Origin: Roseimicrobium sp. ORNL1
Lineage (GTDB): Bacteria; Verrucomicrobiota; Verrucomicrobiia; Verrucomicrobiales; Verrucomicrobiaceae
Reading direction: 5' to 3'
DNA: 64,000 nucleotides
Assembly (NCBI RefSeq): GCF_011044495.1
Contig: NZ_CP049143.1
Span: 5,704,001 to 5,768,000 of the forward strand
A program made the translations under genes and the position numbers. A model generated the notes under the pieces. The model had not been told where the DNA came from and did no database searches. It was given only the letters and a program-made list of their open reading frames with translations. Shown one piece after another: positions 22,145-34,176 of the stretch (its first letter is position 1; every line of letters begins with the position of its first letter).

Positions 22145-23518
22145 CTACCGCTTCGCCACCAGGTCGTATCCACGCCAGTCCTGAATGGTGACATCCGCGA
22201 ACTCGCCCACAGGCAGGTCCGCATCCACGAACACGGTGCCGTCAATATCCGGAGCATCCATGTAAGTGCGGCCCTCGCCGGGCTTCTCCACGAGCACGCG
22301 GACGGTCTTGCCCACCATGCTGGCGTTGAACTCTTCCGCACGATGCTGCAGGGCGCGCATCGCTTCATTCCAGCGACGCTGACGCGTGCTGTGGTGGATG
22401 TGCCCTTCCATCTTGTAGGCACGGGTGCCTTCCTCCTTGGAGTAATTGAAGACGCCGGCGCGCTCGAACTTGGATTCGTCGATGAACTGGACGAGCTCTT
22501 CGAAATCCGCCTCCGTCTCGCCGGGGAAACCGACGATGAAGGTGGTGCGAATCGCCAGTCCGGGAATGCCCGCACGCATGCGCTTCACGAGGTCACGGAT
22601 GTAGTTTCCATCCGTCTCGCGCTTCATGAGCGTCAGCATGTTGTCGCTGATGTGCTGCAGCGGGATGTCGATGTAACGTGCCACCTTCGGGCTTTCGGCC
22701 ACGGCCTTGATGAGTTCATCACTCCAGTGCGCGGGGTGCGTGTAGAGCAGGCGAATCCAGAAGTCACCTTCGATGGTGTTCAGCTCACGGATGAGTGTGG
22801 CAAGGCTCTCGCCACGGGTGCTGTCCACGCCGCTGCGGGGGTTTGGGCGCTGGCCCTCCCACTTGTCCATGCCGAAGTAGGTCGTGTCCTGGGAGATGAG
22901 GTTGATTTCCTTCACCCCGCTTTTCACCAGGGCCTGCACTTCCTTCACCACGCTCTCCTGCGTGCGGCTGCGGTGGCGGCCACGGATTTTCGGGATGATG
23001 CAGAAGCTGCACGGGTGATTGCAGCCCTCGGCAATCTTCACATACGCGGAGTGCTTCGGCGTGAGGCGGAAGCGGGGCGTGTCGTAATCCGGAATCCACT
23101 GCGGCTTTTCCGTCACATGGTTCTCAGGCGCCTCGTCCTCCGTGCGCTTCTTGCCCATGAGACCCTCGATGACCGGGGCCACCTTCGTGAGCTGGTCCAG
23201 GCCGATGAAGGCATCCACCTCAGGCATGAGGTTCGGCAGCTCTTGGGAGAAGCGCTGGGCCATGCAACCGGCCACGATGATCTTCTGCTTCGCGCGCTTC
23301 TTGCCCCCGTCCGCACGGCCATCCACGGCCTCGTGCACGCTGGCGATGCTCTCCTTCTTCGCCATGTCGATGAAGGAGCAGGTATTGATGATGAGCACAT
23401 CGGCAAGATCGGGCTCCGGAGTCATGGCCATGCCCGCCTGCTGGAGGTGGCCAATCATGATTTCCGAATCAATGAGGTTCTTGGCACAGCCAAGGGAGAC
23501 GAGTCCGACTTTGATCAT
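22145..23518 (-). CDS. rimO: Ribosomal protein S12 methylthiotransferase RimO
   Basis: RimO is a radical-SAM enzyme that adds a methylthio group to the conserved aspartate of ribosomal protein S12. The 457 residues show an N-terminal UPF0004 domain (MIKVGLVSLGCAKNLIDSE with a cluster-binding cysteine, plus NTCSFI and VAGCMAQRF), the radical-SAM motif C166-x3-C170-x2-C173 in GCNHPCSFCIIP, and a C-terminal TRAM domain (about 390-457). LVSLGCAKNLIDSE and the short length place it in RimO rather than MiaB. Both [4Fe-4S] ligand sets are complete. Confidence 0.96.
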   Translation of the reverse strand: MIKVGLVSLGCAKNLIDSEIMIGHLQQAGMAMTPEPDLADVLIINTCSFIDMAKKESIASVHEAVDGRADGGKKRAKQKIIVAGCMAQRFSQELPNLMPEVDAFIGLDQLTKVAPVIEGLMGKKRTEDEAPENHVTEKPQWIPDYDTPRFRLTPKHSAYVKIAEGCNHPCSFCIIPKIRGRHRSRTQESVVKEVQALVKSGVKEINLISQDTTYFGMDKWEGQRPNPRSGVDSTRGESLATLIRELNTIEGDFWIRLLYTHPAHWSDELIKAVAESPKVARYIDIPLQHISDNMLTLMKRETDGNYIRDLVKRMRAGIPGLAIRTTFIVGFPGETEADFEELVQFIDESKFERAGVFNYSKEEGTRAYKMEGHIHHSTRQRRWNEAMRALQHRAEEFNASMVGKTVRVLVEKPGEGRTYMDAPDIDGTVFVDADLPVGEFADVTIQDWRGYDLVAKR

Positions 23519-23570: not shown

Positions 23571-23695
23571 GGAGGTTAGGCGTCCCGCCTGACAGCGGGC
23601 GTTAGGCCTCCGGCCTGACCGTCATTCTGTATTTCAATGTGATTTGGTCAGGCCAGAGGCCCAACCACCTCCGTCAGGCGGGACGCCTAACCTCC
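23571..23695. repeat. Inverted pair of REP-like repeats
   Basis: Two copies of the GTCAGGC family face each other, GGAGGTTAGGCGTCCCGCCT... at 23571-23619 and the opposite orientation at 23648-23695, separated by 28 bp. The whole can fold as one long stem-loop between the rimO start and the first paralogue gene. Confidence 0.9.
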
Positions 23696-23765: not shown

Positions 23766-25157
23766 ATGCACGAAACCTCCACGACCCCTGACAACCTTCC
23801 AAAGCCACGCCGCCGCCCGTGGCTCATCGTATCCGGTTGCATCGTCGTCGCAGTCGTCGTGCTGCTGATGCTGGTGGTGCTGCCCGTAGTGGTGTTCCGG
23901 CAGATGGCCTTCCGTGACGATCCGCGGCCCGATGACTCACGCATGACTCCCCAATGGTCGGAAAGGGATCCCGCGACCAACCCCTTGATTCTCTTCTGCC
24001 ATGCAATCCCCCAAACGCCAGCCAGGAAGCAGTCCCTCCTGCCAAAGGAGGTGAAGAACCTGGAGGCCGTAACGATGGCACGCGCGAAGGAGTTTCTCGC
24101 AGAGCAATCCGCCACCCTCGCTGCCTTTGACCAGCTCCGGCAGACCGACTCCACCACATGGCTCTGGCCGGATGGAAAGGCCATCGTCGACCCCAACTAT
24201 TCCGTGGGCTATCTGGGAGACTGCCAGGGCGCCATGCAAGTAGTACTGCTGAAAGCGAAGGTACTGGCTCGGGAGGGAAAATGGGATGAAGCGATGCGGC
24301 TCAGCCTGGACATCGCCAGGGTGGGACTAGGCATGCAACACGCGGAGAGTGCCCCCATACCTCTGCTGGTGGGTATTAGCTTTCAAACGCTGGGGGAAAA
24401 TCAGTATCTCGCCCTTGCCACCTCTGACGGGGTGACACGTGCGCAACTCCTGCACGCGCTGCAAGAGCTCTCCGCCATGGAAGGTCCGCGTCGTGAGGAT
24501 CTGAAATTCTCCCTGCAGACAGACTACCAGTTCTTCCTGCATTGTCTCGAACTCGTTCACCAGGGGAAAGGCTCCACCGGCACCACGGGAATTCCACCAC
24601 GAGCGCCCAAGTTTCTCCTCAAGCGCCATCGTACCATGAACATGCGCTTGAAGCAGGACCTCCCGATCATCGAGGGACTCGACCAGGGATGGCGGGAGGG
24701 ATTTGCCGCAGCCGTCCGTGCCGAGGAAGCCTATGACGAAATCACGGCGAACAAAGGCTCGATCAGCTTCTTTCTGGATTCCAATTTCGTGGGCAAAACC
24801 ATCTACATCTTGACCGCATCGACGCCGGTGACACTCACCCAGGGCATGATGAATAACGTCGTCAGCCGGGAACAGCGCAAGGTGCTCCTTGCCCTCCGCC
24901 TCCACGAGTTGGACCATGGCCACCTTCCCCCATCCCTGGAAGCACTCGTGCCGGCATACCTGCCCGCTGTGCCTGAGGACATCTATACCGGCAAGCCCAT
25001 GCTCTGGAATGCCAGGGACAAGGTGGTCTATTCCACCGGAGGAAATGGCATCGACGATGGAGGAAAAATCGACAAAGAACAACCTCGCAAAGGGCTCGAT
25101 TTTGGCATGGCATACCCCTGGAAAACTACGCCCCCAACCTCGCCTCCGCATGAGTGA
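23766..25157 (+). CDS. Tandem paralogue 1 (type A), membrane-anchored protein of unknown function
   Basis: This encodes 463 residues and is the first of five related genes. A short cytoplasmic stretch (KPRRRPWL) precedes one membrane segment (residues 20-45), then DDPRPDDSRMTPQW and NPLILF, a motif set shared by all five. The large C-terminal part is alpha-helical. It ends with the type A module: LRLHELDHGHLPPSLEALVP, AYLPAVPEDIYTGKPMLWNA and a GNGIDDGGKID turn. That last module resembles the end of some planctomycete/verrucomicrobial pilin-like or secreted proteins, but no enzyme motif is visible. The stop overlaps the start of paralogue 2 by 8 bp, so the two are co-translated. Confidence 0.8.
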   Translation: MHETSTTPDNLPKPRRRPWLIVSGCIVVAVVVLLMLVVLPVVVFRQMAFRDDPRPDDSRMTPQWSERDPATNPLILFCHAIPQTPARKQSLLPKEVKNLEAVTMARAKEFLAEQSATLAAFDQLRQTDSTTWLWPDGKAIVDPNYSVGYLGDCQGAMQVVLLKAKVLAREGKWDEAMRLSLDIARVGLGMQHAESAPIPLLVGISFQTLGENQYLALATSDGVTRAQLLHALQELSAMEGPRREDLKFSLQTDYQFFLHCLELVHQGKGSTGTTGIPPRAPKFLLKRHRTMNMRLKQDLPIIEGLDQGWREGFAAAVRAEEAYDEITANKGSISFFLDSNFVGKTIYILTASTPVTLTQGMMNNVVSREQRKVLLALRLHELDHGHLPPSLEALVPAYLPAVPEDIYTGKPMLWNARDKVVYSTGGNGIDDGGKIDKEQPRKGLDFGMAYPWKTTPPTSPPHE

Positions 25158-26538
25158 GAATCTCTCCCCTGCTGGGCTCGTTGAAGGGGATAAGAAGCCG
25201 CACCGCCGCCCCCTGCTCATCCTGGGTGGGCTCGTGCTGCTACTGCTGGGGGTGATGGCGTTCCTCTACCTGAGGGATGATGCTCCCGCGGACGATTCGG
25301 ATTTTCTTATCGTGTGGGGCGACAAAGCTCTCACCAATCCACTGGTGGAGTTCATGAAGGAACTCGGACCGGCGCATCCGGAGCAGTTGCCGTCTGAGAT
25401 GTGGATGATGGAGCACACCATTTCCGAAGAGCTTCTTGCCAGGAACACCTCTCTCCTCCCCGCCTTTCACAAGCTGATGGCTACAGATGCCTCGTCATGG
25501 AGTCTGATAGACATCAACGCTTCGGCCTTCCACGTGTGGAGTTTCCCATCTCTGTTTTGTTTTGGGTCGAGGGTGCTGCCCGAAATAATTGAAGACCATG
25601 TGCGCCGGGGTGAGCGTCAGGAGGCCGTGACACTGGCACTTGAGATGCACCAGTTCGCACACCGGCTCCTCAAGGCAGAGGCTGGCCTTCATGTCTACAA
25701 AGAGACCCTGGATCTTCAGGAAAACGCCAGCGAGCTTCTGTTGAAGGCTCTCGAAGGCACGACCTCGCCCGACTTGCTGAAGCAGGCTCAAGAGCAACTT
25801 TCAGGTCGGGATCCCACACCTCAGGATCTCATCCTCGCCCTGAAGGATCAATATGCCGCCGAGAAGGCGTACTTGCTGGACGCCGTAAATGATACCGGGA
25901 GCTTCGAGGTGGTATTCCGTGATGAAGACCCTTCATTCATCAAGCGATGGTACCGCCCCCAACGCACCATCAATCAGCACCTGGAATTTTGCCGGCAGAT
26001 GGTCGCTGGCCTCGACCAGGGCTGGGCAGGCGCCCAAGCGAAAGCAGATGCGTGGGCAGGGACCATCGAGAAGAGAACCGGCGGAAAATGGGCGCGTTAT
26101 GCCAATCCCAATTTCGCAGGAGACGGGATTTTGCTGCACGTGGCTCCCAGAAGGATTGCGTGTGATACGGCAATCCACATCACGGTTCAGCGCATGTTGA
26201 TGACGTCGCTGGCCATCCGGCGCTATGAGCTCGCGCACCACACGTCTCCGCGTACCTTGGAAGAACTGGTGCCAGCGTTTCTGTCTGCCGTGCCGGTGGA
26301 TGCGATGAACCACACCCCGCTGGAATGGGATGCCACCAACCACACCCTCCAAGCAGCATCCCCCTGGCCGCTCGATTCCCCGTGGAACCTGAAACTCCAT
26401 GTACTTCCGGGTGAGCTCCCCCCACTCCTCGGAGGGAAGGTAACCTTCGGCAAAGATGATGCCAGGATTCGCTTCCTGCTGGGTCCGGAAGCCCCCGGCG
26501 AAAAATCCGGGAGTGCAGATACACCATCGCCGCGATGA
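25150..26538 (+). CDS. Tandem paralogue 2 (type B), membrane-anchored protein of unknown function
   Basis: This encodes 462 residues. The ATG at 25150 is chosen because it restores the shared N-terminus (HRRPLLILGGLVLLLLGVMAF membrane anchor, then DDAPADDSDF and NPLVEF); the open frame runs 87 codons further upstream inside the previous gene. The middle is helical (VTLALEMHQFAHRLLKAEAG). It ends with the type B module: MLMTSLAIRRYELAHHTSPR, TLEELVPAFLSAVPVDAMN and PLEWDATNHTL, lacking the DDGG turn of type A. It overlaps paralogue 1 by 8 bp and is 7 bp before paralogue 3. The function is unknown. Confidence 0.8.
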   Translation: MSENLSPAGLVEGDKKPHRRPLLILGGLVLLLLGVMAFLYLRDDAPADDSDFLIVWGDKALTNPLVEFMKELGPAHPEQLPSEMWMMEHTISEELLARNTSLLPAFHKLMATDASSWSLIDINASAFHVWSFPSLFCFGSRVLPEIIEDHVRRGERQEAVTLALEMHQFAHRLLKAEAGLHVYKETLDLQENASELLLKALEGTTSPDLLKQAQEQLSGRDPTPQDLILALKDQYAAEKAYLLDAVNDTGSFEVVFRDEDPSFIKRWYRPQRTINQHLEFCRQMVAGLDQGWAGAQAKADAWAGTIEKRTGGKWARYANPNFAGDGILLHVAPRRIACDTAIHITVQRMLMTSLAIRRYELAHHTSPRTLEELVPAFLSAVPVDAMNHTPLEWDATNHTLQAASPWPLDSPWNLKLHVLPGELPPLLGGKVTFGKDDARIRFLLGPEAPGEKSGSADTPSPR

Positions 26539-26545
26539 GCCACCC

Positions 26546-27886
26546 ATGAACGCTGAAGACGCCACGAAAAAGCACCGCCGCCCCCTGCTCATCCTGGGTG
26601 GTCTGGTGCTGCTGATGCTTGGCGTGCTGGCGTATATGCTCCTCTTCCATGACGGCCCGCCGCCAGATGATGCGCATCTCATGCCCACGTGGTCCGAGCG
26701 CGGTGGCAATGCCAATCCGCTGGCGGTCTTCTGCAGGACACTGCAGGCCAGTTCCATCAAGCACTGGGAGAAGCTGCCCTACGAGTTGAGAGACCTCGAT
26801 GAAAAGTCCACTCCAGAGGCGCGGAAGTTCGTCGCTGCGCACTCCTCGGAGATTGAAGCCTTTGAGTCGCTGATGCTCACAGATCCTGGTACGTGGCAGT
26901 GGCCGGATGCTGCGGACATGGCCATATACAAGACGCCCTACTCAGACGGGGGCGCCTCCGAATGCCGAACGCTGTCCGTTGTGCTACGCTCCAAAGCCCT
27001 CCAGTTGTCTGAAGATGGAAAGGCGGAAGAAGCAATCGCCCTTTGTTTAAAAATGGCTCGCTGGGGAGATGGTGTTTATGGAGCGGAGGGCAATACCCTG
27101 CACCTTTTGGATTCGGGAAGTATTCACTATGGCGCCCTGCACACCTTCGGGAAAGTGTTGCAAGCTGGAGGGCCTACCCCGGCGATGCTGCGGGACGCTT
27201 CGCTGCAACTGCGCACGCTGAAGGGACCCGAAACGGAACAATACAAAAGAGCTCTGAAAGTTAACTACGCCCGGATGAAAGACTTCACAGGGAAACTTTC
27301 CAGCAAGGACCTCCAGTATATCGGAAATCTGCCGAGGGCTCTCCGGTTCCTGGCTCCGCGATACTTCAAGCGAAACCAGACCCTTACCACGCGCGTGCAA
27401 CTGGACGCTCCGCTGATCAGCGCACTCGACCAGGGTTGGACGTCCGCCTGCTCCGCCCTGGATGCTCGGGAGGCGAAAGTCGCAGCTATGTATGCCCCAA
27501 AGACCTTGGCGTGTCTCATGGATCCAAACTTCATCGGCAAATCCTCTTTGTTCTATGAGATGGGCCTGCCAAAGACTCGTCAACTCTGGAGCCGGCGGGA
27601 TGCACTCACGCTGCAACTCGCCCTCCGGCTGCATGAACTGGAGCGCGGCCACCTTCCAGCCACACTCGATGCTCTTGTACCCACGTATCTTCCAGCGGTG
27701 CCCGTGGATGTCATCACCGGAACACCCTTCCTCTGGAATGCGAAGCTGCAAGCGCTCTACACCGTGGGGAAGAATGGCAAGGACGATGGAGGCAGAATCG
27801 ATGAGGAACGCATCGAACGCGGACTGGACTGGGGAGTGAAGTATCTGTGGAATCCAGCGAGCAACAGTCAACCTGCCGCCCCATGA
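26546..27886 (+). CDS. Tandem paralogue 3 (type A), membrane-anchored protein of unknown function
   Basis: This encodes 446 residues from the ATG at 26546, which aligns the anchor (HRRPLLILGGLVLLMLGVLAY) with paralogue 2 almost residue for residue; the DNA of this part is also nearly identical, suggesting recent conversion between copies. DGPPPDDAHLMPTW and NPLAVF follow. The helical middle includes KRNQTLTTRVQLDAPLISAL and DQGWTSACSAL. The type A end is LRLHELERGHLPATLDALVP, TYLPAVPVDVITGTPFLWNA and KNGKDDGGRID. It overlaps paralogue 4 by 4 bp (ATGA). Confidence 0.8.
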   Translation: MNAEDATKKHRRPLLILGGLVLLMLGVLAYMLLFHDGPPPDDAHLMPTWSERGGNANPLAVFCRTLQASSIKHWEKLPYELRDLDEKSTPEARKFVAAHSSEIEAFESLMLTDPGTWQWPDAADMAIYKTPYSDGGASECRTLSVVLRSKALQLSEDGKAEEAIALCLKMARWGDGVYGAEGNTLHLLDSGSIHYGALHTFGKVLQAGGPTPAMLRDASLQLRTLKGPETEQYKRALKVNYARMKDFTGKLSSKDLQYIGNLPRALRFLAPRYFKRNQTLTTRVQLDAPLISALDQGWTSACSALDAREAKVAAMYAPKTLACLMDPNFIGKSSLFYEMGLPKTRQLWSRRDALTLQLALRLHELERGHLPATLDALVPTYLPAVPVDVITGTPFLWNAKLQALYTVGKNGKDDGGRIDEERIERGLDWGVKYLWNPASNSQPAAP

Positions 27887-29187
27887 CCATGAGTGAGACT
27901 CCGGCTACTCCACAGAAGGAGCGCAGCCTCCGTCGCCGCCCCTGGCTCATCGCCGGCGTCATCGTCATCATGCTGCTCGGCGCACTGGTTTATTTTTTCC
28001 TCAGGGATGAGGTGCCGCCGGAGGATGCGGACTTCAAACCTGCATGGACCGCAGGCGGTGGCCCGCGGAATCCGCTGGTCATTTTCATGGAAGAGACCAG
28101 TCCGCTATACAGAAGGGAATATTACGGCCACTACCAGCCGGGCACTCCGGAGGAGGCTCAGCGGCTCGAGGTACTCGTGGCAAAGAATGCGTTTGTCTTT
28201 CCTGCCTTTGAAAAACTGATGGCCACAGACAGTTCCCTGTGGCGATGGCCAGACGACCGGGGGACATCCTTTCCCCTTCGTGACGATTGCTACATCTGCC
28301 AGGAAGTCGCGGAAATCGCCCTCGCGACCAAGGTGGAGTTTCTGGTTCACCACGGACAGCGCCGGGAGGCTGCCATGCTGGCCGTGGCCATGCATCGCTT
28401 CGGACATGGCCTGAACCAGGCGGAAGGCGGCAGCTTGTATTACTCGCAGGTGCTGAAGATTCAGGAAGTTGCAAGAGACGAGCTGGTGCTCGCCTTGGAG
28501 AGTGAAACCTCGCCAGAAATTCTGGAGCAGGTTCAAGAAGAGCTGACCGGCATAGAACAGCAAACCTCAGATCTGATTCCGGTGATCAAGAGAGGTCACC
28601 TTCTCATGACGTCCGTCTTCCACACGATGGCCCATGATGAGGCGGCCTTTGCCGATCTCACCCAAAGGCATCCATCTTATTTCAAAATATGGCTGCGCCC
28701 CAATCGCACCCTGTGGTTGGACTTGCAGTACCGGCGAGATCTCATTGCATCCCTGGAAAGCGGTGACTGGCGCAAGGCACACACGCAATCCGAAGCCTTC
28801 CTCGACGCGGTGTTCGCGAGACACAGAAAGTTCTGGCACTGGATGACGAATCCCAATGCCTTCGGAAGAGGCCAATGGTACGAATGGCTCAACAAAGATC
28901 TGGTGCTGGATACTGCGACGGAGGTCAACAAACATCGGATGCTCATCACGTCCCTTGCCATCCGCCGCTATGAGTTGTCCCACAATACCCTGCCGAAGAC
29001 GCTGCAGGATCTGGTGCCGGAGTTTTTACCCGCCGTGCCGGTGGATGCCATGAACAGCCTCTCCATCGAGTGGGATCCCGCGAAACGTGTACTTCTCGCA
29101 CGAGGGTTCCGCTCACCCGGCTCCATCGTCATTCATCGCAGCTGGGACGGCGACATCACCTTCCCTCTCTGGTGGAAGGCACCATGA
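27883..29187 (+). CDS. Tandem paralogue 4 (type B), membrane-anchored protein of unknown function
   Basis: This encodes 434 residues from the ATG at 27883, which forms an ATGA overlap with the preceding stop; a second ATG at 27889 is equally in frame. The N-terminus is RRRPWLIAGVIVIMLLGALV (anchor), then DEVPPEDADFKPAW and NPLVIF. The middle shares LAVAMHRFGHGLNQAEGG and VQEELTGIEQQ with paralogue 2. The type B end is MLITSLAIRRYELSHNTLPK, TLQDLVPEFLPAVPVDAMN and IEWDPAKRVLLARG. Its C-terminus after this block is short and hydrophobic (ITFPLWWKAP). Confidence 0.8.
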   Translation: MTMSETPATPQKERSLRRRPWLIAGVIVIMLLGALVYFFLRDEVPPEDADFKPAWTAGGGPRNPLVIFMEETSPLYRREYYGHYQPGTPEEAQRLEVLVAKNAFVFPAFEKLMATDSSLWRWPDDRGTSFPLRDDCYICQEVAEIALATKVEFLVHHGQRREAAMLAVAMHRFGHGLNQAEGGSLYYSQVLKIQEVARDELVLALESETSPEILEQVQEELTGIEQQTSDLIPVIKRGHLLMTSVFHTMAHDEAAFADLTQRHPSYFKIWLRPNRTLWLDLQYRRDLIASLESGDWRKAHTQSEAFLDAVFARHRKFWHWMTNPNAFGRGQWYEWLNKDLVLDTATEVNKHRMLITSLAIRRYELSHNTLPKTLQDLVPEFLPAVPVDAMNSLSIEWDPAKRVLLARGFRSPGSIVIHRSWDGDITFPLWWKAP

Positions 29188-29263
29188 CCCGTGCGCCACC
29201 GCACACTCGCAAAACAAACCTCGACGTCCACGCTCTCTTGAGCCAAAAAGTCAGTTTCCCTCC

Positions 29264-30694
29264 ATGCACGCATCCGATTCCCCCACCTCCCCTGACCTAG
29301 AGAAAAAGGAACGCCGCCGTCCGTGGTTGGTGATGGGTGGCATCACGCTGCTGGTGCTCGGTGTTCTCTTTGCGCTCATCGTCTGGTATGATGGCCCAGC
29401 TCCGGACGACTCCATGATGGTGGTGCCACCGTCCATGCAGGTAGCAGCGTCCGCCAATCCGCTGTCTGAGTTTTGCCGTGAGCTGGAAAAGTCTACTGTC
29501 GGCGGCCTTCCGGAAGTCAGGGATGAATGTCGCTATGCCGGGCTTGCCTCGCAAGCGAACCGGCAACCGGACACACGCCCTGCCGCTGTGAAGAAGGACA
29601 CGCTCAGGAGACAGCAGGTGGAAGACTTCCTGCAAAAGCACGAACCGTTTGTGGCAACGTTCACGAAATTTCTACAAACGAACGCCGACACCTGGCAATG
29701 GCCGGAGCAATCCTCCATTCGCACCCTTGCCAGCCCCGGATACCTCATCAAGCTCAATACCCTTCGCTACGTGCTGTACATGAAAGTGGAGATGCTCATG
29801 TGGCAGGGGCGCACGCAGGAAGCTGTCACCCTGAGCCTCGATATGTGCCGCCTGGGGAAGGGGTTGTGCGGGGCGAAAGGTGGCACCGCGCAGTTGCTGG
29901 CCGGCATCAATATGGCGAAAACGGGACAGTGTGCGCTCGAGCACGCCCTGACCGCAGCGGAGCCCTCACCGCAACTCCTGCGCCAATGCATCACGGAACT
30001 GGCCGCCCTGGAGGCGCCGCAACTGGAGGCCGTGCTCCTGAGCGTGAAGACAGACTACCAGGACTTCAAAAGTCGCGTCCTCCGCAAAGACTTCCTTTCC
30101 GCCTTGGGCGATGGCAGAACCCCTGGAACGGGCGAGAAACTCATCGGCACCTTCTTCTTCAAACCCAATCAAACCCTGGCGGAATTGCTTTCTCATGAGC
30201 TTCCTGTCATGGAAGGCCTGTCCAAGGACTGGCATGCAGCCATAGCCGCTGCAAGCACCCAGGAAAGCATCCGGCGAAAGGAAAGGAGTCGAGGAGTACT
30301 TGTCTTTGCCCACCCGAACTTCGGAGGCAGGGCCGCCGCATGGAATGCCGCCTACGGCAGTGTGTATAAACTTGAGGACTCCCTCGGCTATCTCACGCGA
30401 AACCGGCAAATCCGGCTGGTGCTCGCCCTGCGGCTGCATGCGTTGGACAAGGGTAACCTGCCACCGAACTTGGAAGAACTCATACCAGCATATCTGCCCG
30501 AAGTGCCGGAAGACGCCTACTCGGGCAAACCCATGCTATGGAACGCTGCGAAGGAGATCGTCTATGCCGTGGGTAACGACATGCGGGATGACGGAGGCAG
30601 CGGCAGGTCGGACATCCGCAACTCCAGAGATTTTATCATGCCTTACTGGTGGGCGGCTACCCCACAGGCCGCCGGCAAGGCATTTGGCAGGTGA
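29264..30694 (+). CDS. Tandem paralogue 5 (type A), membrane-anchored protein of unknown function
   Basis: This encodes 476 residues from the ATG at 29264. The frame is open 59 codons further upstream, but only this start gives the shared layout: a charged start, RRRPWLVMGGITLLVLGVLF (anchor), DGPAPDDSMMVVPP and NPLSEF. It is the longest member, with an extra ~25-residue insert (about 80-105, rich in R and Q). The middle contains FKPNQTLAELLSHELPVMEG. The type A end is LRLHALDKGNLPPNLEELIP, AYLPEVPEDAYSGKPMLWNA and GNDMRDDGGSG. The gap to paralogue 4 is 76 bp, the largest in the cluster, so it may have its own translation signal. Confidence 0.8.
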   Translation: MHASDSPTSPDLEKKERRRPWLVMGGITLLVLGVLFALIVWYDGPAPDDSMMVVPPSMQVAASANPLSEFCRELEKSTVGGLPEVRDECRYAGLASQANRQPDTRPAAVKKDTLRRQQVEDFLQKHEPFVATFTKFLQTNADTWQWPEQSSIRTLASPGYLIKLNTLRYVLYMKVEMLMWQGRTQEAVTLSLDMCRLGKGLCGAKGGTAQLLAGINMAKTGQCALEHALTAAEPSPQLLRQCITELAALEAPQLEAVLLSVKTDYQDFKSRVLRKDFLSALGDGRTPGTGEKLIGTFFFKPNQTLAELLSHELPVMEGLSKDWHAAIAAASTQESIRRKERSRGVLVFAHPNFGGRAAAWNAAYGSVYKLEDSLGYLTRNRQIRLVLALRLHALDKGNLPPNLEELIPAYLPEVPEDAYSGKPMLWNAAKEIVYAVGNDMRDDGGSGRSDIRNSRDFIMPYWWAATPQAAGKAFGR

Positions 30695-30761
30695 TTTCCA
30701 CTTGCCTACGTCCAACGACGGCGCTTAGGAAAAGCCGTCATTGGTCCGTCGATCTGCCCTG

Positions 30762-31556
30762 ATGAGCATTGAGCAACTGGCACTATCTGTCGTAATCCCC
30801 GCCTATAACGAGGAGAAGACGATTTGCCGCGTGGTGACCAGGGTGCTGGAGTTGGGCTTTGTGAAGGAAGTCATCGTGGTGGATGACGCCTCGAAGGACA
30901 ACACCGCCGAGACGGTCAGAAGCCTGACCCAAGGTGATGCACGTGTGCGACTGGAAAGGCACGCAACCAATCAGGGCAAGGGAGCCGCGCTACGCACCGG
31001 TTTCAGCGCGGCCACAGGCGGTGTGGTTATCGTGCAAGATGCAGACCTGGAATATGATCCTGGTGAATATCATCTCGTGCTCGATCCCATTGCCAAGGGA
31101 CATGCGCACGTGGTGTACGGATCCCGTTTCGCCGGTGGCCGCGCTCATCGCGTGCTCTACTTCTGGCACAGCGTGGGAAACAAGTGCCTCACGACGCTCT
31201 CCAACTGCTTCACAAACCTGAATCTCACGGACATGGAGACCGGGATGAAGGCCTTTCGCAAGCACGTGCTCGACCAGATTCATATTGAAGAGAACCGCTT
31301 CGGCTTTGAGCCGGAGATCACGGCGAAAGTGGCACGGCTCGGCGTGCCCATGTATGAGGTGCCGATTTCCTACTACGGTCGAACCTATCTGGAGGGCAAA
31401 AAGATAGGTTGGAAGGACGGCGTGCGCGCCGTGTGGTGCATCGTAAAATACGGTCTGCTTCCTCACGGCGGGAAGAGGCTTCTCGCCACCGCTGCAGATG
31501 CCGACAATACCGCCATTCAAAAGCCCTCCGCCATTACTCCAGACTCCGCTTCATGA
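30762..31556 (+). CDS. Family 2 glycosyltransferase (polyprenyl-phosphate type)
   Basis: This 264-residue GT2 enzyme begins at [20 protein letters not shown]; the frame is open seven codons earlier. The nucleotide-sugar site is [14 protein letters not shown], with the metal-binding [12 protein letters not shown] (DxD-like) near residue 100. The later blocks [20 protein letters not shown] and [11 protein letters not shown] are typical of dolichyl/polyprenyl-phosphate mannose or glucose synthases. There is no C-terminal membrane pair, so it would act at the cytoplasmic face as a soluble or peripheral enzyme. It overlaps the next gene by 4 bp. Confidence 0.92.
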
Positions 31557-32269
31557 GTGATCCATCAGAAGCATATTTCGCCCAGGACTTGGAGGCGATG
31601 GATCAGGCCGAGAACTACTTCGACTGGATCTTTGAAGGCTTTGGTCCCTACATCGGGAAAGACATCCTGGAGGTGGGCGCCGGTACGGGAAACCTGTCCA
31701 AGCGGCTGCTGAAATTCAAGCCTGACCGCGTGGTGGGAGTGGAACCCTCCAGCAATGTTTACCAGATTTTGGAAAAACGTCTCGGCGCAGAGCCGGGATT
31801 CACGCCCGTGCGCGGCTGCCTTTCCGACCACCATGCGAAGTGGCAGCGGGCCTTTGACACCGTGATGTATGTCAATGTGATGGAGCACGTGGAAAAGGAC
31901 CGGGAGGAGGTGGAGCTTGCCTCATCCTGCCTGCGCGCCGGAGGGCACCTGCTCATCTTTGTTCCTGCACAGCCCTGGCTTTACGGCAGTGCTGATGAAC
32001 TCTTCGGCCACTACCGGCGCTACACCAAGGAATCGCTCTCCGCTCTTCTTCCTGCAGCCGATTGGGAAGTCGTGGACCTGCGTTACTTTGACGTCCTCGG
32101 CATGCTGCCGTGGTGGGTGAGCTTTGTCTTGCTGCGGTCCAAGAAGATGAGTCCCGGAGGCGTGAAGTTGTATGACCGCTATGCCGTTCCCGTCATGAGG
32201 CGCGTCGAAAACGCCCTTCCTCCAGCCGTCGGGAAAAACCTGCTGCTGGTGGCCCGCAGGAAAGGCTAG
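31553..32269 (+). CDS. Class I SAM-dependent methyltransferase
   Basis: This encodes 238 residues. The ATG at 31553 overlaps the glycosyltransferase stop (ATGA). Motif I is [17 protein letters not shown] (about residue 42), motif post-[10 protein letters not shown], and motif [21 protein letters not shown]; the following [20 protein letters not shown] and [10 protein letters not shown] blocks are typical of small-molecule or glycolipid methyltransferases near polysaccharide genes. The C-terminal part has one moderately hydrophobic segment ([15 protein letters not shown]), which could dock it to the membrane. The substrate cannot be deduced; context suggests a lipid-linked sugar or quinone-like lipid. 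Confidence 0.88.
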
Positions 32270-32286
32270 CCAGCGCCGCTGCATTC

Positions 32287-34176
32287 ATGATCCGCATCGC
32301 CTTGTATCTTCTGCTGCAAGTGGCCGTGCTGCTTGGCTGGGGATGCCTCGTGCAGCGGCTTTTCATCCGGGGCACGAGCCGGGGAATGGGGCCCTTCATG
32401 CTGGTGTGGCTCGGTTGGGCCGGGCTGGTGGCTCTTCTCCAAATCCTGCACTTGCTGTTGCCCATCCAGGGCTGGATGCAGGCCCTGGTGATCATGACCG
32501 GCCTGGGGGGACTGTGGCTGGGTAGACGGGAACTCGTGACCACGCTGCATCTCCTGGATGCCGCGCCGCAGGGAATGCGACGTCTGGCAGGCTGGTCCTT
32601 GCTGGCAATCCTGCTCGCTCTATTCACAGGCTACCTGGTGCTCGGACCGGACCAGCGCGCCCTTTCCTATGATACGGAGCTGTATCATCTCGGCATTGTG
32701 CGGTGGAACAATGAATACCCCACCGTCCCGGGCGTGGCCAATCTGCATCTGCGGCTGGGGGTGAACTCCACTTTCCTGCTATATGCCTCCCTGTGGAATA
32801 CGGGACCAGGCGAGGGGCGCACCGCATGGATTGTAGCGGGTTTCCCGGCATTTCTTTTGTGCATCCACTGGCTGGCGGTGATCCTTCTGGACCGGTCTCG
32901 TGGCTGGGCATGGAGAAGCGCCTACTGCCTCCTCACGCTGCCCTATGCTATTCGGTTGCTCGCTCATACCGAGGCTTCGCTCTACTTTGACAAGGTGGCG
33001 CTCATCGGCGCACTGGTGACGGGACTGTGGCTCCTTCACCTAGGCTGGCTCTGGCTCGGAGAGGGGCAGCGCCAACCGAACGAGCGAGAAGGACCTTCCG
33101 CCCCCACCCCATCTGACTCCGGGACAGGCCATCTCCTCGTCCCTCTTCTTTCCGTGCTGGTGCTGAACTTCACCTTCAAACAATCACTGGCATTTCATGC
33201 CGCGTTGGCGGGCCTGCTGGCGATTGGCCTCGGTATCCTCCAGTTACGTCGGCAACGCATCCCCATGGCATCGGGAGTTCGCATCGTTCTCGGATGGGGC
33301 GTGCTGCCAAGCCTCCTGCTGGCCGCATATCTTATCAACAATGCCTTCCTTTCCGGGTGGCTCTTCTTCCCCGCACCCGTCCTGCGACTTCCCGTCCAGT
33401 GGGCGGTGCCTGTAGCTGACACCCAGGACCTTTATCTTCAGATCAAGAGCTGGGCGCGCTCCATTGGACGACTGGATCTGGGTGAAGCCAGCGTTGGGGA
33501 ATGGATTGAGCCGTGGAAGAAAGGCTTTCTTCGCTCGCAGGAATATCAGCTCTTGGCGGCCGCCCTCGCCGCCCTGGCAATTTTGATTTGGAAAGGGTGG
33601 ACCGGAAGCAGGTTCATCACGAGGACTGGCGGTGTTCGCTGGGTTCTGGCTCTCGGGGTGGTATCCCTGTGCAATCTCGCCGCCTGGTTCTTCACCGCAC
33701 CGGACCTGCGCTTTGCCGATGGACTGTTCTGGATGTTTTTCGGATGGATGGGGACCTTCCTGCTGGCCGCCCTTCTGGAACAGGCCCGGACGGTGCAGAC
33801 TGTTGCGCTTGGCATCGGCCTTGTGTTTTTCCTCACGGTCTCCGGCAATCTGTTCCCGCGGTATTCCCCGGGTCAGCTATGGTCTATTCCACACGCACGC
33901 GCCACGGCAACGGTGCCCTATCCGGGCCCTGGGGATGCACTGGCAGAAAATCGCGACCCTCACATTCCCACGGTGCTCGTGCCGAAGGACCCATCCTCCG
34001 ATCAGGTGGCGAATGCTCCCCTGCCCTCAACTCCCTATCGCAATGACCGGCTGCGCATTCGGACCCCCGGCAATCTGCGAGATGGCTTCTACATGGTCGA
34101 GTTTCTGCCCACTGCCTCAAAAGCGCCTCAGGACAGCGGCTCGAAGCTTGAATCTCGCGAGAGCTCTCCACAGTAG
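32287..34176 (+). CDS. Polytopic membrane protein, LIC_10190-like (probable GT-C-type)
   Basis: This encodes 629 residues with a dozen or more membrane segments. The extracytoplasmic loop after the third or fourth segment has DTELYHLGIVRWNNEYPTVP and GVANLHLRLGVNSTFLLYAS, a block characteristic of the LIC_10190 family and reminiscent of the acidic first loop in GT-C glycosyltransferases. The C-terminal ~90 residues are soluble and Pro/Ser-rich. It follows the glycosyltransferase and methyltransferase genes by 17 bp. The simplest reading is a three-gene module that makes a polyprenyl-linked sugar and uses it outside the membrane. Glycosyltransferase activity is inferred, not shown. Confidence 0.75.
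   Translation: MIRIALYLLLQVAVLLGWGCLVQRLFIRGTSRGMGPFMLVWLGWAGLVALLQILHLLLPIQGWMQALVIMTGLGGLWLGRRELVTTLHLLDAAPQGMRRLAGWSLLAILLALFTGYLVLGPDQRALSYDTELYHLGIVRWNNEYPTVPGVANLHLRLGVNSTFLLYASLWNTGPGEGRTAWIVAGFPAFLLCIHWLAVILLDRSRGWAWRSAYCLLTLPYAIRLLAHTEASLYFDKVALIGALVTGLWLLHLGWLWLGEGQRQPNEREGPSAPTPSDSGTGHLLVPLLSVLVLNFTFKQSLAFHAALAGLLAIGLGILQLRRQRIPMASGVRIVLGWGVLPSLLLAAYLINNAFLSGWLFFPAPVLRLPVQWAVPVADTQDLYLQIKSWARSIGRLDLGEASVGEWIEPWKKGFLRSQEYQLLAAALAALAILIWKGWTGSRFITRTGGVRWVLALGVVSLCNLAAWFFTAPDLRFADGLFWMFFGWMGTFLLAALLEQARTVQTVALGIGLVFFLTVSGNLFPRYSPGQLWSIPHARATATVPYPGPGDALAENRDPHIPTVLVPKDPSSDQVANAPLPSTPYRNDRLRIRTPGNLRDGFYMVEFLPTASKAPQDSGSKLESRESSPQ

Follow-up and report, generated by a model that had tools for sequence, protein, structure and literature searches.

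A tandem array of membrane-anchored proteins with predicted GspG-like head domains beside rimO in Roseimicrobium sp. ORNL1

A domain of the pilin fold is normally made with a prepilin leader and assembles into polymers. In modular type IV pilins of the S. sanguinis PilB type, the pilin end is reportedly N-terminal and carries grafted cargo. S. sanguinis PilB is presented as a modular type IV pilin, in which a pilin module is joined to another module (PMC8179133). In GspG, the major pseudopilin of type II secretion systems (T2SS), the calcium site follows the motif G-x-D-G-x(5)-D-D, as given in PMC3396595, and PMC5131608 and PMC3396595, together with a reference title in PMC6211770, indicate that calcium is important to this pseudopilin.

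The locus described here lies in a window of 64,000 nt (the whole stretch of DNA that was analysed) of Roseimicrobium sp. ORNL1, NZ_CP049143.1. A preliminary description, made from the sequence letters alone, had recognised in it five tandem paralogous open reading frames (ORFs) on the forward strand, alternating between an A and a B type. Their coordinates were borne out (Table 1), with the ATG starts of genes 2–5 picked to fit the alignment, and the proteins align along their length. The first four genes do overlap or nearly touch, as had been claimed, with overlaps of 8 nt (genes 1/2) and 4 nt (genes 3/4) and a gap of 7 nt (genes 2/3), while 76 nt separate genes 4 and 5. The other four array proteins match A1 at E ≤ 2e-27. 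In Pfam and NCBIfam scans of the five proteins no family rose above its cut-off, weak scattered matches (Wzz, YjfB, CbiN, and others) being all that was returned, and a Pfam scan of ten relatives likewise gave weak or other-domain matches only. Among titles and abstract openings in the open-licence part of PMC, a scope that makes this a weak negative, no description of the family was found. The five array proteins belong to a large family that is apparently unnamed.

Table 1. Features of the array, its surroundings and selected related loci. Coordinates refer to the window unless a locus is named.
Feature	Coordinates	Strand	Description
rimO-like radical SAM/TRAM gene	22145..23518	-	Divergent from the array; conserved landmark adjoining it in relatives
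19-bp inverted repeat, first arm	23575-23593	+	Between rimO and A1
19-bp inverted repeat, second arm	23673-23691	-	Between rimO and A1
A1	23766..25157	+	Transmembrane anchor, helical arm, GspG-like head with DDGG loop
A1 GspG-like head	24789..25154	+	Homologous region
A1 loop	25029..25064	+	YSTGGNGIDDGG; aligned with the GspG calcium-loop region
B1	25150..26538	+	A1-type architecture by alignment; head without DDGG loop
B1 head region	26110..26535	+	No DDGG loop; by alignment
A2	26546..27886	+	A1-type architecture; AF2 model ma1bbb4c079f7, mean pLDDT 87, pTM 0.88
A2 head, residues 336-446	27551..27883	+	Modelled alone: long helix, short helix, three-stranded sheet
A2 loop	27758..27793	+	YTVGKNGKDDGG; aligned with the GspG calcium-loop region
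B2	27883..29187	+	A1-type architecture by alignment; head without DDGG loop
B2 head region	28849..29184	+	No DDGG loop; by alignment
A3	29264..30694	+	A1-type architecture
A3 GspG-like head	30326..30691	+	Homologous region
A3 loop	30563..30598	+	YAVGNDMRDDGG; aligned with the GspG calcium-loop region
GT2, methyltransferase, 629-aa protein (no Pfam match)	30741..34176	+	Neighbours, judged outside the system
L168, sigma-linked locus, own genome	L168 7119-11474		ECF sigma gene, small protein gene, two family genes
L168 small protein	L168 10450-10941		No Pfam match
Fimbriiglobus ABC-2-like + family ORF	L094 4968-8450		ABC-2-permease-like region (below Pfam cut-off), then the family region
Fimbriiglobus ABC-2-like + family ORF	L110 3635-6904		ABC-2-permease-like region (below Pfam cut-off), then the family region; ABC ATPase gene upstream

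The head domain and its helical arm

In all five proteins the basic start and the one membrane anchor of the preliminary description were recovered as a single hydrophobic segment near the N-terminus, and past residue 60 no 19-residue window exceeds 1.6 on the Kyte-Doolittle scale; a basic N-terminus followed by one anchor suggests an N-in, C-out orientation. Of two motifs said to run through the whole set, NPLxxF is present in five of five, while P-x-DD is literal in B1 and A2 but reads PDD in A1 and A3 and PPED in B2. In the full A2 model an all-helical arm of approximately 300 residues lies between the anchor and the head. With the whole model as query, Foldseek returned nothing under E 0.46, and the best matches in VIA were designed helical proteins at Z 8.2, below the level of approximately 13 recommended for models of this helical kind; no known fold is therefore claimed for the arm.

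The head itself resembles GspG in structure. Modelled alone from 46 sequences (pLDDT 86.6), the A2 head consists of a 25-residue helix, a second, short helix, and three strands. In Foldseek its six best PDB matches were all major pseudopilins (EpsG and PulG, probability 0.98–1.00), the best at E 0.027 and none reaching E 0.001. In VIA, the A2 head matched PulG at Z 10.4 (2.8 Å over 87 residues), EpsG at Z 9.1–9.4 (2.1–2.2 Å over 85 residues), and E. coli GspG at Z 9.2 (2.7 Å over 86 residues). Two GspG NMR entries scored Z 7.9 and 5.4, level with or below the type IV pilin PilA1 (Z 7.8), so GspG is favoured over other pilins rather than proven.

Sequence comparison points the same way. A profile of 40 heads, hand-picked from 179 listed and including overlapping loci, had one significant match among PDB sequences, XcpT (2kep), the GspG of P. 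aeruginosa, at E 7e-4; the next entries, 5wda (E 0.87) and 1t92 (E 1.0), are both GspG, neither significant by itself, and were followed by unrelated chains. Searched singly, 11 of the 40 heads matched the Pfam model T2SSG at E ≤ 1 (best 2e-4), three matched ComP_DUS, another pilin model, and six other families were hit by one head each. None of the five full-length proteins matched T2SSG at E ≤ 5 or reached its Pfam gathering score. An hhalign comparison of the head profile with Verrucomicrobiota GspG, a one-template run against an unclean GspG set, aligned only 17 columns at a probability of 3.4% and counts against the link, perhaps because at least one row resembles another pseudopilin and the alpha-beta loop of GspG is longer. 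An alignment labelled A2 (not to be confused with protein A2) comprised 66 of 84 listed relatives plus the five window proteins, and a head alignment (A4) comprised 41 relatives plus the same five. Overall, it is well supported that the C-terminal module has the predicted fold and a residual sequence signature of the head of GspG, as modelled on A2 and extended to the other copies by alignment. Shared with GspG are, in the C-terminal domain, the long helix, the short helix, and the three-stranded sheet, together with a motif of the (L/V)PxDP type and an acidic loop that precedes the last strand. Short ORFs (223–366 aa), some of them in tandem, at four other loci (L093, L106, L108, and L125) match only the helix of the head and its LVPxYLPxVP part.

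However, the proteins differ from GspG in the absence of both the prepilin-peptidase site and the N-terminal pilin spine. A site of the G-F-T-x-x-E type at the start of a transmembrane spine is absent from all five, and a loose prepilin pattern occurred in two of 149 full-length ORFs (138 distinct), both times in a charged stretch ahead of the anchor. The head is instead placed on an ordinary anchor and the helical arm. The missing prepilin signature and the helical arm together argue that these are not pseudopilins but bearers of a pseudopilin-type head. Modular type IV pilins (PMC8179133) are similar in combining a pilin module with another module; they differ in that the pilin-like head of the array family is itself the C-terminal part.

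The acidic loop is also shorter than its counterpart. In the A copies it takes the form G-x-N-G-x-D-D-G-G or G-x-D-x-x-D-D-G-G, about four residues shorter than G-x-D-G-x(5)-D-D, so calcium binding can be proposed for the family only hypothetically. The B copies have no calcium-type motif. The pattern used to score loops misses some true loop ends (A3, and genes of L064, L069, L089, L168, and L175), which were corrected by eye.

Two head types and the history of the array

The preliminary description had assigned different C-terminal modules to the A proteins (LHxLxxGxLP..LWNA..DDGG) and to the B proteins (LAIRRYELxH..LVPxFLxAVPVDAMN). This reading did not hold, as the two endings occupy the same alignment columns and form one homologous module, in which the B copies lack the final Y(S/T/A)xG...DDGG stretch and have other sequence in its place. 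The division into two types is nevertheless real at the level of the tree. Pairwise identities are 31–34% between A proteins, 36% between the two B proteins, and 22–27% between A and B, and in a tree of 30 full-length proteins, from which pieces were dropped, B (support 100/100) and A (85/82, below the program's starred level) form the separate clades expected of them. The outcome that would have spoken against two types, with neighbouring genes as closest relatives, was rejected by the approximately unbiased (AU) test for A1+B1 (p 4.6e-7) and for A2+B2 (p 3.8e-5). The same test did not resolve the relations among A1, A2, and A3, and did not reject a single clade of the eight proteins of the genus (p 0.14).

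The B clade is narrow. It holds three of the 30 tree proteins, all from the window and from G001, a genome of the same genus, whose B protein groups with B2 (100/97); 14 array proteins of genus g2 fall outside it. The A/B split, as judged from the tree, is older than the split between the two species. Lack of the loop occurs beyond the B clade too, since in the tandem genes of L188 and L190 every member is without it. At L089, L115, and L116 one loop-lacking member stands among loop-bearing ones, with no alternation.

The alternating order had been taken to imply duplication of a two-gene unit and retention of both types as a pair. Neither proposal was borne out. In G001, the only other genome of the genus compared, the array at the rimO locus reads B-A1-A2, and the B clade contains no protein of other genera; the relations among the three A genes do not reveal a duplicated unit, and an alternating arrangement is one of the ten possible orders of three A and two B genes, so that chance alone would yield it a tenth of the time. 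Among 19 other loci with at least two family genes no clear alternation was found; L097 is ambiguous, since one of its loops is a variant and one of its genes is truncated where the locus ends. The A-B-A-B-A order therefore looks local to this genome rather than the mark of a conserved two-part machine, and the pairing reading rests on one genome.

Selection on the genes, by contrast with their pairing, was confirmed. Three pairs compared with G001 (A1, A2, and B2) are under purifying selection, with dN/dS of 0.23–0.25. Array pairs are 50–65% identical, whereas four flanking genes are 86–96% identical with dN/dS of 0.04–0.14, and dS is 1.09–1.71 (near saturation) for the array pairs versus 0.47–0.66 for the flanking genes. 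In the pairs tested, array genes evolve fast yet under purifying selection. With dS higher than in the flanks, simple vertical descent looks less likely than turnover, recombination, or hidden paralogy.

Relatives, neighbouring genes and possible roles

Family members are widespread. Of 193 genomes drawn from across the phylum Verrucomicrobiota (each at least 90% complete, with at most nine candidates scored per genome), 76 have matches at E ≤ 1e-6, and 75 loci were collected from named records, many of them metagenome-assembled genomes (MAGs), including Planctomycetota, Kiritimatiellae, Lentisphaerae, and a few other phyla. Tandem arrays recur across these loci. The genome of Roseimicrobium sp. 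ORNL1 has six further family genes besides the five of the array, one of which encodes a short protein containing just a portion of the head. A family gene or array adjoins rimO (82–96% identical to that of the window) in G001, in G002, G012, and G018 (all of genus g2), and in G006, with copy numbers at this locus ranging from one in G006 through three in G001 and five in the window to eight full copies and a broken one in G018; broken copies are also present at the rimO loci of G002 and G012.

Downstream of the array, the gene order in the window continues with the GT2 glycosyltransferase, the methyltransferase, the 629-aa protein, and a GNAT gene, which had suggested glycosylated or envelope-exposed products. 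In G001, however, the array runs straight into the GNAT gene and the three-gene module is absent (L114), and the 629-aa protein was found in only two of 19 genomes, its own and G004. The glycosylation link is therefore not conserved, and the proposed partnership was rejected on synteny. Other recurrent neighbours looked like close-relative background or common gene families.

Some members elsewhere are associated with ECF sigma factors. In a count restricted to loci whose family gene still covers more than 200 model positions (68 of 75), an ECF sigma gene lies within 1.2 kb upstream on the same strand at 10 of the 56 loci with at least 1 kb of upstream flank, versus 0 of 62 downstream and none on the opposite strand. 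At the remaining 46 loci no sigma gene occurs within this distance, and the ten come from few lineages (for example L045/L075/L090 and L101/L112), so they are not ten independent events. Two sigma-linked loci lie in the Roseimicrobium genome itself. In L168 an ECF sigma gene, a small protein, and two family genes follow one another, an order repeated in G001 (L175); the small protein has one moderately hydrophobic stretch (best window 1.46) and may be an unrecognised anti-sigma factor. In L170 a family gene is preceded, at a distance of roughly 2 kb, by an ECF sigma gene, and an alpha/beta hydrolase gene stands between the two. The sigma regions were confirmed with Pfam, which also identified an RskA-type anti-sigma factor (RskA_C, PF10099) in the G012 locus that corresponds to them. 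These loci, and those of relatives, resemble ECF sigma/RskA_C operons in having family members downstream of the sigma gene. The array differs in that its five proteins match no anti-sigma model (RskA or similar) in Pfam or NCBIfam, and no sigma factor was found within the 64-kb window. In addition, two single ORFs of Fimbriiglobus have an ABC-2-permease-like region, below Pfam cut-offs, ahead of the family region, and at L110 an ABC ATPase gene lies upstream.

The reading that we prefer, with a probability of about 0.4, is a lineage-specific expansion of an extracytoplasmic envelope-signalling or adaptor family with a head-and-arm architecture, the function of which we infer from its relatives. 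On this view, an uncharacterised protein family that is PVC-wide would have undergone birth-and-death expansion at the rimO locus in one family of Verrucomicrobiota, with the array as the outcome. Carried by the arm, the GspG-like head would sit in the periplasm and bind or sense without polymerising, and the family may serve as an extracytoplasmic sensor or adaptor in envelope-stress circuits, because members elsewhere follow ECF sigma genes (in at least one operon with an anti-sigma gene) and because of the two ABC-2-like regions of Fimbriiglobus. The rimO-linked branch, lacking a sigma partner within the window, would have diversified by tandem duplication, with A and B as presumed loop-bearing and loop-lacking versions of the head protein. 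The lasting result is that a large family is predicted to combine a GspG-type head with an architecture other than that of a pilin; naming this domain provides a structural handle on many hypothetical proteins, and the sigma-factor and ABC-2 links render a role in envelope signalling directly testable.

Several other explanations draw on the same data. The quick shifts in copy number, the broken copies in G018, G002, and G012, and the turnover or hidden paralogy suggested by the dS of apparent orthologues (1.09–1.71 versus 0.47–0.66 in the flanks) would fit a largely neutral or dosage-driven tandem expansion, in which the paralogues are redundant and A and B have no separate tasks; we consider this rather unlikely, as the dN/dS of 0.23–0.25 indicates constraint and the A/B split appears to predate the species split. 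The resemblance of the head to GspG could instead mean that these proteins are T2SS accessories, with tethered heads docking onto pseudopilus or secretin and acting there as regulators or receivers. A T2SSG match is indeed found in 73 of 76 family-positive versus 84 of 117 family-negative genomes (Fisher p 8.6e-6, uncorrected for phylogeny), but the association falls to p 0.013, still uncorrected, when 17 double-negative genomes of genus g12 are left out, three family-positive genomes (G203, G213, and G222) have no T2SSG match, and a scan of seven neighbours in the window turned up no T2SS gene. This explanation is, in our judgement, unlikely.

It has also been proposed that A and B form an obligate hetero-oligomeric assembly of the envelope or surface, with B as the structural partner that has no calcium-type loop. 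Both types are kept in the window and in G001, after a split that apparently predates the two species; gene overlaps suggest co-expression; purifying selection acts on the pairs; and the mixed arrays of L089, L115, and L116, each with a single loop-lacking member, would be in keeping with such an assembly. However, ratio and order vary within the genus (3A:2B alternating versus 2A:1B as B-A-A), B-clade proteins are confined to it, and the 19 other multi-gene loci offer no clear alternation (L097 being ambiguous), which makes the obligate complex quite improbable. Equally doubtful is a more far-reaching extension of the preferred sensor or adaptor reading, by which the pseudopilin head of the T2SS would have become, in PVC bacteria, a periplasmic receptor that is tethered and does not polymerise; across a large family the calcium-type loop would switch the arm-borne head, the receptor would report to an ECF sigma factor or to ABC-2 or T2SS machinery, and B proteins would be loop-dead partners that tune the A receptors.

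The intergenic region between rimO and A1 contains a 19-bp inverted repeat, which may be a REP/BIME-like or MITE-like element. Within one mismatch the genome has 64 copies of it, versus 0 for a reversed-pattern control; many copies occur in close pairs, and many lie at 2.28–2.86 Mb.
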